Source: Acidobacteriota bacterium
GTDB taxonomy: Bacteria > Acidobacteriota > UBA6911 > RPQK01 > JAJDTT01
NCBI GenBank assembly: GCA_022827025.1
Contig: JAJDTT010000182.1
Span: forward strand, 1 to 61,076
Direction: 5' to 3'
Length of the DNA: 61,076 bases
Both the position numbers and the translations under genes were made by a program. A model generated the notes under the pieces. It made no database searches. It had not been told where the DNA came from and saw only the letters and a list, made by a program, of their open reading frames with translations. This document shows positions 36,651 through 43,848 of the stretch, piece after piece; positions within the stretch are counted from its first letter, which is position 1, and each line of letters begins with the position of its first letter.

Positions 36651-39350
36651 ATGAGAGCGGCGGTTTTCGGACTCTCGTTTCTGGTCCTGAGCCTGCCCGT
36701 TTCCGGGGCCGAACGCCAGTCCGGGCGCCGGGATCCCGGCCGGCCCGAGTACGAGCGGACCCTGGCTCACCGGGAGGACCGCCAGAACCGGATTCGGGTT
36801 GTTTTCAGGAACGGTCTGACCCTGCTCATCGAAGAACATCCCGCGGCTCCCCTGGCGTCCGTGGTCACTCATCTGCGCGGGTCTGCCGGGACTCCGCGCG
36901 ACCGGAGCCGGGAGAGGCTGCTTTCCGAGCTCTTATTGGCCAACGAAGAGCTCAAGACCCTGAGTTTCGAGGCGGCCTTGCAACTGAGTCCTGAAGAGGG
37001 TCTCAGGGGACCGTCGTTCGTCTCCACGGCGCCCGCCGACCACCTGGAAAACGCGCTGAAGGCTCACGCCCATCTCCTGGATCCGCCGGCACCGTCGGAA
37101 CTCGAGTTGGAGCGGGCCATGGCGACGGTGGAGGAGCAGGACCGCATGCTCCAGCACTCTCCCCGGGAGTTTTCCCGGGCCAGGTTGCTGGAGAGCCTGC
37201 TGCCCGGCGCGGTGCCGGCGAACCCATCGGAGGAACTCCGCGAAGCGTTGGTCCGGCTGCACCAGGAACGCTACCACCCCTCCCGGCTGATCCTGTCGGT
37301 CTCCGGCGCGGTACTGCGGAGCCAGGTGCTGGAACACGTGGCCCGGATCTATGGGAGCCGTCCGGCGGGAAAGGAGCGGATCCGGCGGCGGGCGAAGAAG
37401 CCTGAAAAGGAGCCCTGGCGTCCCTCGGTGACGCGTCTGACCTACCGCCACCTGACCGGGAAGCTGCAGCAGGCTCACGTGTTGCTGGGCTACAGCATTC
37501 CGGGTCTCGCGCATCCCGATCACGAAGCCCTGCTGCTGCTGGCGTACCTCCTGGGCCAGGGGAAAAGCTCCTTGCTCCACCAGAGGCTGGTGCAGCCGGG
37601 AACGGCGATCCGGTCGCAGTCCCGGGTCGAGGCCGATTCCGGGACGGGCCTCTTCCGGATCTCCCTGGCGGCCTCCCCCGGCCGGATCGACCGGGTGGAA
37701 GTCGAGACCCTGGCCGTCGTGGAGGACATCAAACGGCAGGGAATCACCCGGGGCCTGCTCAACCGGGCCAAGGCTCTCTTCGTCAAGGACTTCTACCGGG
37801 ACCAGAACAGTCTCCTGCAGCGGGCGGTCCGGCAGGCCAGGATGGAGGCGGCCGGCCGCTTCTGGGAGGTATTGGAAACCGTCGACCGGGTCCAGTCCCT
37901 GACTCCGGCCCGGGTGCGGGAAGCCGCTTCCAAGTACTTGACGACCGACCGGTTGGCCGTCTTGGAGTACTACCCCGCGACGGCGGAGAAACGAACTTTC
38001 TCGGCGTCTTCGTTCCAGGAGATGCTGGACGTGCTGGTTCCGCCGGCGACCCTCAGGCAGCAGGATTCTCCGCTGAGATCGGCGCGGGGCGAAGACTTCG
38101 CCCCGGTTCGGTTCCAGCCCCGGTTCTCGCGGCCCCGGTTCAAGTCCACGTCGATCCTGAGAGGACCCTCGGTCTACTTCCAGGAAGAGCATACGGCGCC
38201 TCTGGTTCACCTGGGGCTGTTCTTTCCCGGAGGCCGGATCCAGGAATCGCCCGGAAACGCCGGGATCACGGAACTCATGGTCCGGAGCACACTCCGGCAG
38301 GCGGTGGAGGAAAAAGGGGAGCTTCGCTGGTACGACCTGGAACTCATGGGCGCCGACATCCAGGTGGTCAACGAACCGGACTTCTTCGGCCTCCGCGTCA
38401 CCGCGCTGTCCCGCCATCTTCCCGAGCTTCTGGAATTCCTGATCGAGTGGTACCGGGAGTCGGCGCTGGACAAGCAGTCCCTGATCCTGGAGCGTCAACA
38501 ACTGCTTGCCGAGATCCGGACCTGGCAGGATGGCGACCGTTCCCGGCCCCTGCGCAGGACCCGCTCGCTCCTCTACGGGTCTCATCCGTATGGCCTGGAC
38601 CGGCTGGGGTCGTGGGAGTCGGTCTCACGGCTGGACCTGCAGAACGTGGACGAGTGGCTACGGAGGCGGATGCAGGGCGTCCATCCCTGGATCTTCATCG
38701 TGGGAGATATCGAGGGGACCTCCTTCCTGGACGACTTCATCTCCCAACTGGCCAACAGCCGCTATCAGCGCCGCTGGGCGGTTCGCAAGGATGAGGAAGA
38801 GGATATGGAGGAGGAACCGGATCCGTCCGATCTCGGACCGGCTGTCGTGGAGCGGGAGGGCGTGGTCATGGTGGGCCTGCCCGGACCCGCCTACGGAAGC
38901 CGCGATTCCTATGTCGCCGACGTCTGGAAGCACCTTCTCCTGAGTCCGCAAATCCGGGACCTGGTCCCCTCGGGAAGTCCCACGCTGTCCGACCCGGACC
39001 TCCAACTGCAGTCGACATTGAGCCGGGGCGCCCTGTTCGCCTCGGTGTCATCCGTCGAGGGTCAGGAGAAGGAGGCTCGACGCGAGCTGTTGACGGTGCT
39101 CTCCAGCCTCGCCAGGGTCCAGTTCTCCAGGAACGACATCCTGAGCGCCATCGTGGGCGCCATCACTCACCATCACGCTCTCCGCCAGGATCGGCAGAAC
39201 CTGCTCCTTGAACTGGCCATGAGAGCCTTTTCCAAGACCGACTCCCGGCCGGCGCGGGAGTACGTTTCGGTGATCCGAAACGTGACACCCAGCCACATCC
39301 GATCCTTTGCCAACCGGTACTTTCCCGGAACGGTGCAGGGAGGCAGCTGA
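36651..39350 (+). CDS. M16 (insulinase/pitrilysin)-like protein lacking the zinc motif
   Basis: 899 residues. A signal peptide (FGLSFLVLSLPVSGA) is followed by two M16-type halves, roughly 45-440 and 480-890. The fold signatures are present (GLTLLIEEHPAAPLASVV, then YHPSRLILSVSGA; LVHLGLFFPGGRIQES in the second half). The catalytic HxxEH is missing: where it should be, the protein reads GSAGTPRDRSRERLLSELLL. The second half also has no HxxEH. It is thus probably a non-catalytic M16 partner or a scaffold, as in mixed M16 pairs, but no active partner is adjacent. It is first in a same-strand run with sugar-phosphate and epimerase genes. Confidence 0.85.
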   Translation: MRAAVFGLSFLVLSLPVSGAERQSGRRDPGRPEYERTLAHREDRQNRIRVVFRNGLTLLIEEHPAAPLASVVTHLRGSAGTPRDRSRERLLSELLLANEELKTLSFEAALQLSPEEGLRGPSFVSTAPADHLENALKAHAHLLDPPAPSELELERAMATVEEQDRMLQHSPREFSRARLLESLLPGAVPANPSEELREALVRLHQERYHPSRLILSVSGAVLRSQVLEHVARIYGSRPAGKERIRRRAKKPEKEPWRPSVTRLTYRHLTGKLQQAHVLLGYSIPGLAHPDHEALLLLAYLLGQGKSSLLHQRLVQPGTAIRSQSRVEADSGTGLFRISLAASPGRIDRVEVETLAVVEDIKRQGITRGLLNRAKALFVKDFYRDQNSLLQRAVRQARMEAAGRFWEVLETVDRVQSLTPARVREAASKYLTTDRLAVLEYYPATAEKRTFSASSFQEMLDVLVPPATLRQQDSPLRSARGEDFAPVRFQPRFSRPRFKSTSILRGPSVYFQEEHTAPLVHLGLFFPGGRIQESPGNAGITELMVRSTLRQAVEEKGELRWYDLELMGADIQVVNEPDFFGLRVTALSRHLPELLEFLIEWYRESALDKQSLILERQQLLAEIRTWQDGDRSRPLRRTRSLLYGSHPYGLDRLGSWESVSRLDLQNVDEWLRRRMQGVHPWIFIVGDIEGTSFLDDFISQLANSRYQRRWAVRKDEEEDMEEEPDPSDLGPAVVEREGVVMVGLPGPAYGSRDSYVADVWKHLLLSPQIRDLVPSGSPTLSDPDLQLQSTLSRGALFASVSSVEGQEKEARRELLTVLSSLARVQFSRNDILSAIVGAITHHHALRQDRQNLLLELAMRAFSKTDSRPAREYVSVIRNVTPSHIRSFANRYFPGTVQGGS

Positions 39351-39386: not shown

Positions 39387-40466
39387 ATGAACCCGATCCT
39401 GGATGACCCGCGCGAGATCCGGAGCCGCGACTCCCAGGACATGCTCGGCTACCTGGGCCGATTCGACCGTCAACTGGAGCAGGCGCTGAAGATCGGAGGC
39501 CAGGTCGATCTACCGGCGCGTCCCGCCGGCGTTCGATCGGTGACGGTCAGCGGGATGGGCGGGTCGGCGGCATCCGGGGACTTTCTGCAGGCCTGTCTGG
39601 GCCGGGAACTGAAGGTTCCGTTGTGGGTGAACCGGAACTACGGCGCTCCGGGATTTACCGGTCCCCGGACGCTTTCACTGCTCTGCAGCTACTCGGGCAA
39701 TACGGAGGAGACGGTGTCGGCCTTCCGGGCCGCCCATGCCGCGGGAGCCCTCATCGTCTGTATCTCGTCGGGCGGCGCCCTGGGCCGCCTGGCCCGGGAG
39801 CATGGACACCCGTGGGCCCGGATTCCCGGCGGCCAGCCTCCCCGATCGGCCCTGGGCTTTCTCTCGTTTCCCTGCCTGGCGATCCTGAGCCGCCTGTCCC
39901 TGATTCCCAGCCGCGGCCGGGAACTGGCGCAATGCCTGGATTGGGTCCGGGACCGGATCCGGGCGTACGGGCCCCATCAGCCGTCCTCCGGCAACCCGGC
40001 CAAGCAGGCCGCTCAAGCCCTCCGCGGGAGAATCCCCTTCGTATATGGCAGCCAGGACCGCCTGGAACTGGTGGCCCGCCGCTGGTGCGGTCAGTTCGCG
40101 GAAAATGGGAAGCAGCTCGCCTGCTGGAAGGCCTTTCCCGAAATGAATCACAACGAGGTCGTGGGATGGAGGCACCCCGCAGACCTGTTGGAGCGTATAC
40201 TTCCTGTTTTCCTCAGGGACACGGAGGACCATCCCCGGATCCGGCTCCGCTTGGATTGGACCCGGAAGTTCCTCTCCCGGCGTTCCGGGACCACCCTGGA
40301 GTACCGGACCGAGGGCGGCAGTTGGCTGGACCGATTGCTGATGCTGATCCTGTTGGGCGACTACGCCAGCGTCTACCTGGGACTCCTCAACGGGGAGGAC
40401 CCCAGTCCGGTGGCGGCCATCGACGAGCTCAAGACCGAGCTGTCGGGAACCCCGGAAACGGGTTGA
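39387..40466 (+). CDS. Bifunctional phosphoglucose/phosphomannose isomerase
   Basis: 359 residues. SIS-domain signatures of the PGI/PMI family are visible: VSGMGGSAASGD near residue 54, CSYSGNTEET near 95, and the C-terminal PEMNHNEVVGW near 255 with the family's conserved His. The enzyme interconverts glucose-6-P, mannose-6-P and fructose-6-P. It is followed after 17 bp by a phosphomannomutase/phosphoglucomutase, a natural pair for making mannose-1-P or glucose-1-P for glycan synthesis. Confidence 0.9.
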   Translation: MNPILDDPREIRSRDSQDMLGYLGRFDRQLEQALKIGGQVDLPARPAGVRSVTVSGMGGSAASGDFLQACLGRELKVPLWVNRNYGAPGFTGPRTLSLLCSYSGNTEETVSAFRAAHAAGALIVCISSGGALGRLAREHGHPWARIPGGQPPRSALGFLSFPCLAILSRLSLIPSRGRELAQCLDWVRDRIRAYGPHQPSSGNPAKQAAQALRGRIPFVYGSQDRLELVARRWCGQFAENGKQLACWKAFPEMNHNEVVGWRHPADLLERILPVFLRDTEDHPRIRLRLDWTRKFLSRRSGTTLEYRTEGGSWLDRLLMLILLGDYASVYLGLLNGEDPSPVAAIDELKTELSGTPETG

Positions 40467-40483
40467 CGGATACTGGAGACTCG

Positions 40484-41848
40484 ATGAACCCAGAGCTGTT
40501 TCGAGAATACGACATACGGGGAATCGCGGACACCGATCTGGCGGACGAGTCGGTGGAAACGCTGGGCCGCGGCCTGGGCACCTACTTCGTCCGGCGCGGC
40601 GCCGCTCGAGTCACGTTGGGAAGAGACGTCCGCCTGAGCTCCGCACGGCTTCGGGACGCCCTGGCCCGGGGTCTGACACGAACCGGCCTGACCGTCATCG
40701 ACATCGGGGTCTGTCCCACTCCCCTGCTCTACTACTCCCTGCACCGCCTGAAGCCGGAGGCGGGCGTGATGATCACGGGGAGTCACAATCCTCCCGAGTA
40801 CAACGGCTTCAAGGTCGCCCTGGGAACCGGCACCATCTACGGCGCCGAGATCCAGAAGGTCCGGAAGATCATCGAAGCGGCCGACTTCGCCTGTGGCGAA
40901 GGCAAATTGGAATCGGCGTCCCTGATGGAGGATTACCGCCGGCACATCGGGGAGCGGGTCCCGCCCTTGGGGAAGAGATTGAAGGTGGTCGTCGACTCGG
41001 GCAACGGGACCGCCGGCCTGGTGGCGCCCGCCGTCTATTCCGACCTGGGGTGCGAGGTCCAGGAACTCTACTCGGAACCGGACGGCCGATTCCCCAACCA
41101 CCATCCCGACCCCACCCTCGTGGAGAACCTTCAGGACCTGATGCAGGCCGTCCACTCGGGTGAGGCGGACCTGGGGATCTCCTTCGACGGCGATACGGAC
41201 CGGATCGGAGTCGTGGACGACGGGGGCGGGATTCTCTGGGGCGACCAGTTGATGATGATCTACGCCCGGGAGATCCTGGAGCGGCGGCCCGGCACCACGT
41301 TCGTGGCCGAGGTGAAGTGCTCCAAGAGCCTGTACCAGGACATCGAGGCCCGCGGCGGACGGGCCGTCATGTGGAAGGCCGGACACTCCCTGATCAAGGC
41401 CAAGATGAAGGAGGAAGGGGCCGTTCTGGGCGGTGAGATGAGCGGACACATGTTCTTCGCCGACCGTTACTTCGGCTACGACGACGCCATCTACGCGGGA
41501 GCCAGGCTCCTGGAGATCCTCGCCAACAGCGGGCGCCGGCTTTCGCAACTGCTGGAGGACGTCCCACCGACTTTCAGCACGCCCGAGATCCGGATGGACT
41601 GTCCCGAAGACGTCAAGTTCCGAATCGTCGGCCTGGCCCAGTCCTACTTCTCCGACAACTACGAGACGGTGGACGTGGACGGCGTGCGAATCGTCTTTCC
41701 GGACGGTTGGGGCCTGGTGCGCGCCTCCAATACCCAGCCCGTTCTGGTGCTTCGTTTCGAGGCGGACTCGCCCGAGAGGCTGGAGGAGATCCAGAGCCTG
41801 GTCCGGGGAAAGCTGGAGGAACTCAGCGGTGGGATCCACGCGAGCTGA
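40484..41848 (+). CDS. Phosphomannomutase/phosphoglucomutase
   Basis: 454 residues, usual length for the alpha-D-phosphohexomutase family. The phosphoserine loop is TGSHNPPEYNGFK near residue 97. The Mg-binding loop is DGDTDRIG near 235. The sugar-binding GGEMSGH is near 318. The C-terminal phosphate loop is RASNTQPVLVLRFE near 415. It converts hexose-6-phosphates to 1-phosphates. The frame runs open far upstream over the PGI/PMI gene; the ATG at 40484, with GGAG upstream, begins the family N-terminus (FREYDIRGIA). Confidence 0.94.
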   Translation: MNPELFREYDIRGIADTDLADESVETLGRGLGTYFVRRGAARVTLGRDVRLSSARLRDALARGLTRTGLTVIDIGVCPTPLLYYSLHRLKPEAGVMITGSHNPPEYNGFKVALGTGTIYGAEIQKVRKIIEAADFACGEGKLESASLMEDYRRHIGERVPPLGKRLKVVVDSGNGTAGLVAPAVYSDLGCEVQELYSEPDGRFPNHHPDPTLVENLQDLMQAVHSGEADLGISFDGDTDRIGVVDDGGGILWGDQLMMIYAREILERRPGTTFVAEVKCSKSLYQDIEARGGRAVMWKAGHSLIKAKMKEEGAVLGGEMSGHMFFADRYFGYDDAIYAGARLLEILANSGRRLSQLLEDVPPTFSTPEIRMDCPEDVKFRIVGLAQSYFSDNYETVDVDGVRIVFPDGWGLVRASNTQPVLVLRFEADSPERLEEIQSLVRGKLEELSGGIHAS

Positions 41849-41864: not shown

Positions 41865-42725
41865 ATGATCGCCGCCTCCAAGTACCAATCCTACGGCAAC
41901 GACTACCTGGTGATCCGGGAAAGCGATCTGACCCGCCGGAGCGCGGACGCCTTGACCCGGGCCATCTGCCGGCGCCACTTCGGGATCGGCGGCGACGGGT
42001 GCGTCTTCGTCGAGCCGGCGAACGACGACCGCTTCCGGATCCGGATCTTCAACCCGGACGGCAGCGAGGCGGCCATGTCGGGAAACGGATGCCGGTGCGC
42101 CGGCGCCTACGTCCACCACCGGGGTTTGTCCCGGAAGGCGGAGCTGGTTCTCGAAACCCTTTCCGGGCAAAAGATCCATCACCTGCTGGACCGCGGCGAG
42201 TCTTCCTGGCGCTACCGTTCCTCGCTGGGACGGCCTTCCTTCGCTCCGGAAGAGATACCGATGCGGCTGGAAGAGGAATTGTCCCAGGTCGTCGACCACT
42301 CGCTGCGGGTGGAGAACGCAACCGTGACCGTAACGGCCCTGTCGGTGGGCAATCCCCAGTGCGTAGTCTTCGCCTCCACTCTGCCGGTGGACGCCGAATT
42401 CCGGCGCCTGGGGTCGGCACTCGAGGTGCATCCCGCCTTTCCCGAGCGGACCAACGTGAGCTTCGTCCGGGTCACGGGTCCCCGGCGTCTCCAGGCGCGG
42501 ATCTGGGAGAGGGGCGTCGGACCGACCCATTCCTCCGGCACGGGTTGCAGCGGAGCCGCCGTGGCCGCCATCCACACCGGAAGGGTCGGATCTCCCGCAC
42601 GGGTTGGAACCGGGACCGGGCAGCAGCAGGTAGAGTGGCGGCCGGGAGGAGAAGTTCACTTGACGGGACGGGTCGAATTCGTCGGAGAAGTCCGCTACCA
42701 CTGGAGGGAACATGACGGGGAATGA
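41865..42725 (+). CDS. DapF-like epimerase with both catalytic cysteines replaced by serine
   Basis: 286 residues, the length and fold pattern of diaminopimelate epimerase, with RIFNPDGSEAAMSGNGCRC in the first domain and ERGVGPTHSSGTGCSGAA in the second. In DapF the corresponding sites read CGNG and CGTG/CGSG, with the two cysteines as acid/base catalysts. Here both are Ser; the codons are TCG at 42078-42080 and TCC at 42535-42537. Cysteines occur a few residues later at both sites, so a shifted catalytic arrangement is conceivable. The protein may act on another substrate or be a dehydratase or isomerase. It lies between a phosphohexomutase and an M20 peptidase, overlapping the latter by 14 bases. 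Confidence 0.85.
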   Translation: MIAASKYQSYGNDYLVIRESDLTRRSADALTRAICRRHFGIGGDGCVFVEPANDDRFRIRIFNPDGSEAAMSGNGCRCAGAYVHHRGLSRKAELVLETLSGQKIHHLLDRGESSWRYRSSLGRPSFAPEEIPMRLEEELSQVVDHSLRVENATVTVTALSVGNPQCVVFASTLPVDAEFRRLGSALEVHPAFPERTNVSFVRVTGPRRLQARIWERGVGPTHSSGTGCSGAAVAAIHTGRVGSPARVGTGTGQQQVEWRPGGEVHLTGRVEFVGEVRYHWREHDGE

Positions 42726-43848
42726 ACTGCTGAGGGCCTTCGAAGAGGAGCGGGACTCCACGGTGGACTTGCTCCGGGAGTTGGTGGAGCTGGAGAGCCC
42801 CTCCACCGACAAGGCGCTGGTGGACCAGGTGGCGTCCTTTATCGCCGAACATGTGCGGGGCTGCGCTCTGGAGCCGCGGATCGTTCCCAGAGAGGACGTG
42901 GGCGATATCGTCTGGACCGAATGGGGAGAGGGAGGCGAAGGCCGGATCCTGGTGCTCTGCCACCTGGACACGGTCTGGCCTCAGGGGAGCCTGGAGCGGA
43001 TGCCCTTCCGGATCGAGGAAGGACGAATTCATGGGCCGGGGATCTTCGACATGAAGGCCGGAGTGACGGCCACCCTGAAGATCCAGGAATTCATTTCACG
43101 AGGATGGATCCGGCCCCGCCGCAAGGTGAGGTTCCTCTACACCACCGACGAAGAGACGGGCAGCGACGCCAGCGTGGAACTGATCGAGGAGTTCAGCCGC
43201 GAGAGCGACCTGGTGCTGGTGACCGAGCCCCCCCTGCCCGGAGGCGTCCTGAAGACGTTCCGAAAGGGGGCCGGCATGGCGGCGATGAATATCCATGGCC
43301 GCTCCGCCCACGCGGGAGTGGAGCCGGAGCGGGGCGTGAGCGCCGTCCGGGAGTTGGCCCACCAGATCGGGGCGATTCACCGACTCGCCTCCAGCCGGCT
43401 GGAAACCTCGGTCCACGTGACCATGGCGGAGGGCGGCACCCGGGACAACGTGATTCCCGAGTTCGCCAAGGCCACCATCGACTTCCGGTTCCGGACCGTG
43501 GAGGAGGGCCACCGGGTGGAGGATGCGCTGCACGCCCTGAAACCGAGGCATCCGGAGATCCGGCTGGAGGTCACGGGAGGGATCAACCGGCCTCCCATGA
43601 TCAAGGGCGACGGCGGACAGCAACTCTTCGACCGCGCGCGCGAGATCGGGTCCGAATTGGGTCTCGACCTGGAAGAGGGAGAGACCGGCGGCGGCAGCGA
43701 CGGGAGCTTCAGTGCGGCGCTGGGCGTCCCCACCCTGGACGGCCTGGGAGTGAACGGGGACGGGGCCCACGCCCTGCACGAGCACATCGAGTTGGACGCC
43801 CTGCCCGCCCGCGTGGCGTTGCTGGCTCGTCTCGTCGAGAAGTTGTAG
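42712..43848 (+). CDS. M20-family metallopeptidase (glutamate carboxypeptidase-like)
   Basis: 378 residues. The metal-binding residues are visible: HLDTVWP near residue 82, FDMKAG near 112 for the bridging Asp, and DEETGSD near 147 with the catalytic Glu. A dimerisation domain begins at NIHGRSAHAGVEPERG. The distal His is probably in ALHEHIELDAL. The family cleaves C-terminal Glu, N-acyl groups or dipeptides. The start overlaps the DapF-like gene by 14 bases, so the two products likely act in one pathway, for example on N-acylated or D-/meso amino acids from cell-wall turnover (inference). Confidence 0.9.
   Translation: MTGNELLRAFEEERDSTVDLLRELVELESPSTDKALVDQVASFIAEHVRGCALEPRIVPREDVGDIVWTEWGEGGEGRILVLCHLDTVWPQGSLERMPFRIEEGRIHGPGIFDMKAGVTATLKIQEFISRGWIRPRRKVRFLYTTDEETGSDASVELIEEFSRESDLVLVTEPPLPGGVLKTFRKGAGMAAMNIHGRSAHAGVEPERGVSAVRELAHQIGAIHRLASSRLETSVHVTMAEGGTRDNVIPEFAKATIDFRFRTVEEGHRVEDALHALKPRHPEIRLEVTGGINRPPMIKGDGGQQLFDRAREIGSELGLDLEEGETGGGSDGSFSAALGVPTLDGLGVNGDGAHALHEHIELDALPARVALLARLVEKL

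Follow-up and report, generated by a model that had tools for sequence, protein, structure and literature searches.

A conserved Ser/Ser pair in place of both catalytic cysteines in a DapF-like subfamily of Acidobacteriota, a candidate thiol-free DAP epimerase

In the stretch of acidobacterial DNA analyzed here (the window; 61,076 nucleotides), we found a gene of the DapF family whose product carries serine at both positions of the catalytic cysteine pair. Ser/Ser is a widespread form in these bacteria, stably maintained in the only DapF that they have, and we lean slightly towards the view that the window protein serves its host as DAP epimerase, predicted to work with a Ser-Ser acid/base pair instead of thiol/thiolate. 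This reading is preferred because the alternatives need an unrecognised source of meso-DAP in many near-complete genomes. Until it is assayed, the protein, which lacks the cysteines required of a DapF, is best called a member of a Ser/Ser DapF-like subfamily.

Bacteria build their cell wall and lysine with the help of DapF, whose activity is believed to depend on two cysteines. To our knowledge, removal of the alpha proton (pKa about 29) has been held to need a thiolate pair, and the cysteine pair has been treated as indispensable in cofactor-free racemases, where the attack of a weak thiolate on a proton of pKa ~29 is a standing puzzle.

Results

The window protein and its locus

The features of the locus are as follows.

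39387..40466, + strand: bifunctional phosphoglucose/phosphomannose isomerase (SIS) gene, by profile matches
40469..41848, + strand: phosphoglucomutase/phosphomannomutase-like gene directly upstream of dapF (PgmG model, 506 bits against a cut-off of 600)
41865..42725, + strand: Ser/Ser DapF-like gene, ATG start, 286 residues (TIGR00652, 209.3 bits; PF01678, 149.7 bits)
42078..42080, + strand: codon TCG for Ser72, which stands at the N-end of helix 73-85 where DapF has its first catalytic cysteine (Cys75 in Anabaena)
42090..42092, + strand: Cys76, +4 from Ser72, found in 4/78 of the main clade, i.e. the window's genus
42534..42536, + strand: codon TCC for Ser224, which stands at the N-end of helix 225-237 where DapF has its second catalytic cysteine (Cys224 in Anabaena)
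42546..42548, + strand: Cys228, +4 from Ser224, found in 6/78 of the main clade
42712..43848, + strand: M20 metallopeptidase gene, whose first 14 bases lie within the end of dapF (highest-scoring NCBIfam model glutamate carboxypeptidase PRK06133, 271.6 bits, below its cut-off of 349)

The overlap with the M20 gene, which starts at 42712, is thus as an earlier reading made from the sequence only had described it. Further upstream, at 36651-39350, lies an M16 insulinase-type peptidase gene, in which an inactive-domain model scores best in the first half and a catalytic-domain model in the second.

The window protein scores well above the cut-off of the DapF equivalog model TIGR00652 (114.65 bits). 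PF01678 was its only Pfam match at E up to 0.001, and neither a proline racemase domain nor a PhzC-PhzF domain was matched at that threshold. The motifs read MSGNGCRC (residues 71-78) and SSGTGC (residues 223-228). When the protein was aligned by HMMER to Anabaena DapF (PDB 9mro; residue numbering from the accessible part of PMC12039745), S72 fell on Cys75 and S224 on Cys224, with no gaps nearby; neither catalytic cysteine of DapF is thus present. The same two serines were found in three other searched genomes of the window's genus. The segment N63-P-D-G-S-E-A-A-M-S72-G-N-G-C-R fits the PROSITE DapF signature (Cys before (GI)-N-(GA)-x-R, in the wording quoted in an excerpt of PMC8225329) except that Cys is replaced with Ser, so that the signature fails. 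Selenocysteine or recoding at positions 72 and 224 was ruled out by the codons TCG and TCC.

An AlphaFold2 model of the window protein (mean pLDDT 96.4) superimposed on Anabaena DapF 9mro with Z 39.1 and rmsd 2.1 over 274 residues at 34% identity. The model has the two pseudo-symmetric domains of the DapF fold, and the top Foldseek and VIA matches were DapF structures; PhzF structures gave 16-17% identity and Z about 26. Both serines lie at helix N-ends (73-85 and 225-237), like the cysteines of DapF.

Comparison with known systems

Compared with DapF (TIGR00652; 9mro, 3ejx, 1gqz, 5m47), the window protein has the full-length fold and every DAP-contact residue, and DapF and window protein alike occur in genomes with MurE and LysA. 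In contrast, both catalytic cysteines are serine in the window protein, and the His after GNP is often Gln in its clade. According to the accessible part of PMC12039745, DapF works by a thiol-thiolate pair. The same substitutions have been introduced one at a time into H. influenzae DapF (C73S, 2q9h; C217S, 2q9j), with retention of the fold (Z 33.2 and 32.5). Those are engineered single mutants, whereas in the window protein both residues are Ser, natural, and conserved.

Natural serines are known in the superfamily: excerpts of PMC4113996 describe Ser93/Cys in 4-hydroxyproline epimerase and Ser90/Thr in a dehydratase. The Ser-Cys 4-hydroxyproline 2-epimerase and the Ser-Thr 3-hydroxyproline dehydratase share the fold of the window protein and, like it, naturally carry Ser where the first catalytic cysteine would stand, and their activity has been demonstrated; however, the epimerase has only one cysteine replaced, and the Ser/Thr enzyme is a dehydratase (same excerpts). 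Their structures are about 11-17% identical to the window model, and the window protein has no proline racemase match.

The O-ureidoserine racemase DcsC (7vdy), the histidine racemases HisR and CntK, and PddB are DapF-fold racemases with other substrates. DcsC and CntK have a cysteine pair. HisR and PddB use one as well, and mutation of Cys to Ser greatly reduced the activity of HisR and left PddB with <0.1% activity, as stated in the accessible parts of PMC11602996 and PMC8225329, respectively. No natural Ser/Ser DapF was found in our searches of open PMC papers.

The Ser/Ser pair defines a conserved clade

We ran a TIGR00652 profile search against 40 relatives and 247 phylum genomes, each of the 247 being at least 90% complete, and obtained a match in 241 of the 247. 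The six genomes with no DapF match at this completeness were G006, G007, G020, G094, G240, and G252, of which G240 is listed as 100% complete. DapF classes in the 247-genome set were assigned among the matches listed (about 184 bits up), plus 20 genomes that were searched again, and 24 loci came from close relatives. From 118 loci we obtained 110 distinct DapF sequences, not counting the duplicates of the window gene at L001 and L002: 81 Ser/Ser, 23 Cys/Cys, 4 Cys/Ser, and 2 Ser/Cys. Six of the 110 are not labelled acidobacterial (L040, L043, L048, L051, L055, and L056), and without them the numbers are 80 Ser/Ser, 22 Cys/Cys, and 2 Cys/Ser (n=104). The 110-sequence sample is biased to Ser/Ser because it takes in matches of a Ser/Ser query and the best-scoring matches; 40 loci picked for their spread over families gave 26 Ser/Ser, 12 Cys/Cys, and 2 Cys/Ser.

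In a tree of 175 rows with the motif columns included, 78 acidobacterial Ser/Ser sequences formed one group (the main clade) with a local support of 99. A second Ser/Ser group of 14 sequences (support 100) was nearly all of the SGNGLRI/SGSS type and came mostly from a second phylum, that of genome G260, or from family f30; L250 and L256 were Ser/Ser cases apart from both groups. Two acidobacterial proteins in which only the second cysteine is replaced (Cys/Ser; L090 and L114) lay inside the Cys/Cys group of the tree. Both Ser/Ser groups persisted, with SH-aLRT of 95 and 99, when the motif columns were removed and the tree was built from 108 of the 175 rows, kept under an identity limit with the long or doubtful L140div, L255, L107, L245, L256, and L201 excluded. 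On this tree a single origin of the main and second Ser/Ser clades was not rejected (p-AU 0.32).

Pairwise identity in the main clade has a median of 0.39 and a minimum of 0.28 (n=78), and the serines have therefore been kept over a long time. Ser occurs at 72 and 224 in 78/78, the class having been defined by these serines. The codons at the two places in the 81 Ser/Ser sequences (n=162) were 156 TCN and 6 AGY. The dN/dS ratio was 0.24-0.36 within the window's genus and 0.04-0.19 in four other Ser/Ser pairs. Recent decay was ruled out by the clade, the dN/dS values, and the conservation, in line with the sequence-only reading, which had considered two matched substitutions unlikely to be decay.

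Residues N12, N63, N163, N197, E215, R216, G73, N74, and G225 are invariant in the main clade (78/78), and position 226 is Thr or Ser. The corresponding positions hold aziDAP in Anabaena DapF (N13, N66, N164, N197, E215, R216, G76, N77, G225, and T226; accessible part of PMC12039745), so that every residue contacting either end of DAP is present in the window protein. Thus, the view that both thiol catalysts are serine amid well-kept motifs was borne out. The contacts are less conserved in the acidobacterial Cys/Cys proteins, 19 of 26 of which have Val at N163. Residue 165 is His in 45/78 of the main clade, Gln in 28, Asn in 4, and Val in 1, the window protein having Gln. The His aligned to this position is listed as essential for epimerase activity in DapF in an excerpt of PMC5885031, and its presence in only 45/78 could mean another reaction. 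A complete separation of Ser/Ser from Cys/Cys was seen at positions 72 and 224 only, which gives no sign that another candidate base has been acquired. An acidic or basic residue acquired alongside the serines was rejected, since none separates the classes as S72 and S224 do; the next best position was 213 (F/I in Ser/Ser, T/V in Cys/Cys).

Need for meso-DAP and other DapF copies

LysA acts on meso-DAP, and the DNPR motif marks MurE that adds meso-DAP. The window's genome, G000 (98.8% complete), encodes a LysA scoring 479 bits (cut-off 297.9) and a MurE with the DNPR motif, and DAP dehydrogenase (TIGR01921) had no match in it. The window gene encodes the only PF01678/TIGR00652 protein of G000, so that this genome, with its MurE(DAP) and LysA, offers no other candidate for the epimerase; the standard dapF that the sequence-only reading proposed to look for elsewhere in the genome did not turn up in these searches.

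We extended the comparison to a panel of 65 genomes, which by our mapping of loci to genomes contains 47 main-clade Ser/Ser genomes (including 99-100% complete genomes and the one-contig genome G216), 15 Cys/Cys genomes, and 3 of family f30. Among the controls, profile matches were obtained in 9/14, including E. coli, B. subtilis, and M. jannaschii. MurE was over the cut-off in 65/65 panel genomes, and DNPR was present in all 34 panel MurE proteins that were read, 27 of them from Ser/Ser genomes. LysA was over the cut-off in 37/47 Ser/Ser, 4/15 Cys/Cys, and 0/3 f30 genomes. DAP dehydrogenase (TIGR01921) was over the cut-off in two of the 65, both Cys/Cys. DapL, searched with TIGR03540, was over the cut-off in 0/65, with many aminotransferases below it; the cassette of G037 described below fits TIGR03542 instead. 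The profile search found a Cys/Cys DapF in none of the 47 main-clade Ser/Ser genomes: 46 had a single DapF match, and the second copy in G037 was also Ser/Ser.

Outside the panel, G168 has a main-clade Ser/Ser protein and a divergent Cys/Cys copy; the search reported one TGA within the reading frame of the latter. Highly diverged Cys/Cys DapF proteins, most of which score under the TIGR00652 cut-off, were seen in families f30 (L127, L128, L129, L130, L134, L139, and L144) and f22 (L126, L131, and L133), with the motifs FCSNG/CCGTG or SCGTG, and FCINGS or FCVNGS with CCGSA or ACGSA. In several f30 genomes an SGSS-type Ser/Ser paralogue is present as well.

A second phylum and fused DapF domains

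In the phylum of G260 (95 genomes), the 50 loci that were read comprised 40 Cys/Cys and 10 Ser/Ser. The Ser/Ser protein was the single DapF match in seven genomes (G260, G286, G291, G296, G305, G330, and G349), and a Ser/Ser and a Cys/Cys copy occurred together in four (G360, G293, G272, and G326).

In clostridial genomes we observed a DapF domain fused to the C-terminus of the carbamoyl-phosphate synthase large subunit (L048:2761-6819, CarB 9-1057 and DapF 1078-1350). Judged by ORF length and motifs, L043, L051, L055, and L210 have the same fusion. The fused copies carry Cys/Ser, Ser/Cys, or Ala/Cys pairs, and a separate Cys/Cys dapF is also present in G261, G263, and G264.

Gene neighborhoods

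An M20 gene follows dapF in 18/81 Ser/Ser and 0/23 Cys/Cys loci, several loci being short; in L027 it is on the opposite strand. The sequence-only reading had proposed that homologues with SGNG/SGTG might form a clade with the M20 neighbor. The clade itself was recovered, but M20 as a partner of the Ser/Ser trait was ruled out by the low count of Ser/Ser loci. In 15 loci a phosphoglucomutase/phosphomannomutase homologue is found upstream of dapF, at a distance of at most 1.2 kb. Two loci have an S66 LD-carboxypeptidase gene after Ser/Ser dapF, with a further cluster whose one scanned member (L110) is a Mur ligase. Other neighbors of Ser/Ser dapF were an S13 D-Ala-D-Ala carboxypeptidase, PfkB kinases, and HtrA-like proteases. 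Most main-clade loci show no linkage to dap genes, although two genomes have lysA at a distance of about 3.6 kb. The neighbors of second-clade Ser/Ser genes showed no clear pattern in the loci examined.

A 7.1 kb contig of G037 (L191, G037:C101) contains a cassette in which a divergent Ser/Ser DapF-like gene (79 bits, below the cut-off; motifs SGNGLTI/SGSSATA) lies between dapL (TIGR03542, 603.7 against 364.7) and a meso-DAP murE (527.4 against 476), with a lysA-like gene (273 against 297.9) opposite. G037 has 8% contamination and, besides a Ser/Ser dapF of the main clade, contains one more murE and one more lysA; the cassette is therefore a second, divergent set or contamination. A 75% identical copy of the cassette DapF-like protein adjoins dapL in G005, of the window's order (L262, G005:C388). 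Thus, a Ser/Ser protein of the DapF family occurs inside a DAP cassette, though it is not of the window's subtype.

Discussion

The absence of a Cys/Cys DapF from 47/47 genomes, the intact DAP contacts, and the Ser/Ser protein in a dapL-murE cassette speak for an epimerase. If so, LL-DAP would bind as in ordinary DapF, with its distal end held by N63, N163, N197, E215, and R216, while the backbone amides at the facing N-ends of the two helices would bind the proximal carboxylate. Ser72 and Ser224 would stand on the two faces of the alpha carbon, where an alkoxide/hydroxyl pair would remove and return the proton; the two helix dipoles would assist the pair, and domain closure would exclude water. 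The product, meso-DAP, would go to murein and LysA without the disulfide switch or oxidation sensitivity reported for a thiol-pair DapF. According to an excerpt of PMC5296763, the two catalytic cysteines of C. glutamicum DapF can join in a disulfide that turns the enzyme off. A Ser/Ser enzyme cannot form this bond, and freedom from such a switch is a possible selective reason for Ser/Ser.

Several observations speak against the epimerase reading. The pKa of a hydroxyl is about 16, far from that of a thiol. The engineered Cys-to-Ser relatives (PddB and HisR) are nearly inactive, so the Ser-Ser chemistry would be new. LysA is below the cut-off or absent in 10/47 Ser/Ser panel genomes, and the main-clade gene is unlinked to dap genes in most loci. 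In some genomes second-clade Ser/Ser and Cys/Cys proteins coexist, and G168 pairs a main-clade Ser/Ser with a divergent Cys/Cys copy.

The Ser/Ser protein might instead act on DAP or a similar diamino acid in another reaction (one-sided proton exchange, elimination, or isomerisation), with meso-DAP supplied by an epimerase of another, unrecognised family. In the superfamily, the enzyme with a Ser/Thr pair is a dehydratase (excerpts of PMC4113996), elimination of halogenated substrates persists in Cys-to-Ser mutants of glutamate racemase (PMC8142540), 33/78 have lost the His at 165, and Ser/Ser paralogues accompany a Cys/Cys DapF in f30 and in part of the genomes of G260's phylum. Yet every DAP contact is kept in the clade, the dapL-murE-lysA cassette includes a divergent Ser/Ser protein, and 47/47 main-clade panel genomes, all with MurE and 37 with LysA over the cut-off, would be left with no known DAP epimerase. 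We think the different reaction raised by the sequence-only reading rather unlikely and do not favor it, because the window's genome seems to require meso-DAP and has no DapF besides the window protein. An ordinary Cys/Cys DapF that was missed through incomplete assembly or divergence, making the Ser/Ser protein a side paralogue, is very improbable. Many of the genomes are MAGs, and f30 shows that a very divergent Cys/Cys DapF (FCSNG/CCGTG) may come close to the detection limit; however, the same searches caught divergent copies, yet none in the 47 Ser/Ser panel genomes.

It is improbable that another thiol transfers the proton, be it C35, C78, C166, or the +4 cysteines C76 and C228 of the window's genus. 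The window protein has cysteines at +4 of both serines, and C35 (77/78), C78 (75/78), and C166 (71/78) are common in the main clade. No cysteine column is invariant in the 78, however, and the displaced cysteines suggested by the sequence-only reading were ruled out as catalysts by the rarity of C76 (4/78) and C228 (6/78). C35 is also common in Cys/Cys proteins (25/26 and 26/40), has an equivalent in Anabaena DapF besides the working pair, and is missing from Ser/Ser L075; C78 and C166 are both missing from L092 and L104. We give an equally low probability to a DapF that has lost catalysis and is retained for a binding or regulatory role, e.g. DAP sensing or protein contact. Such a role would fit the near-complete inactivity of Cys-to-Ser mutants of relatives (accessible parts of PMC11602996 and PMC8225329), and E. 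coli DapF also binds RppH, with structures of the complex available (6d13). Against it, the protein would be the only DapF in most sampled members of the phylum, under purifying selection and with invariant substrate contacts, and no replacement epimerase was found in the searched genomes.

Returning to the epimerase reading, the broader proposal that most of a phylum and part of a second make meso-DAP with a cofactor-free, thiol-free Ser-Ser two-base epimerase is nearly evenly balanced, with doubt just ahead. If it is true, neither the redox switch nor thiol-directed (aziDAP-type) inhibitors would affect the Ser-Ser enzyme, and a natural sole-copy DapF lacking both cysteines would show that the fold and the helix dipoles, not thiols, carry catalysis. 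Otherwise, these genomes would expose an unrecognised epimerase in a major phylum. Annotation names these proteins DapF though the defining residues are absent, and DapF inhibitors aimed at thiols should not work on these bacteria.
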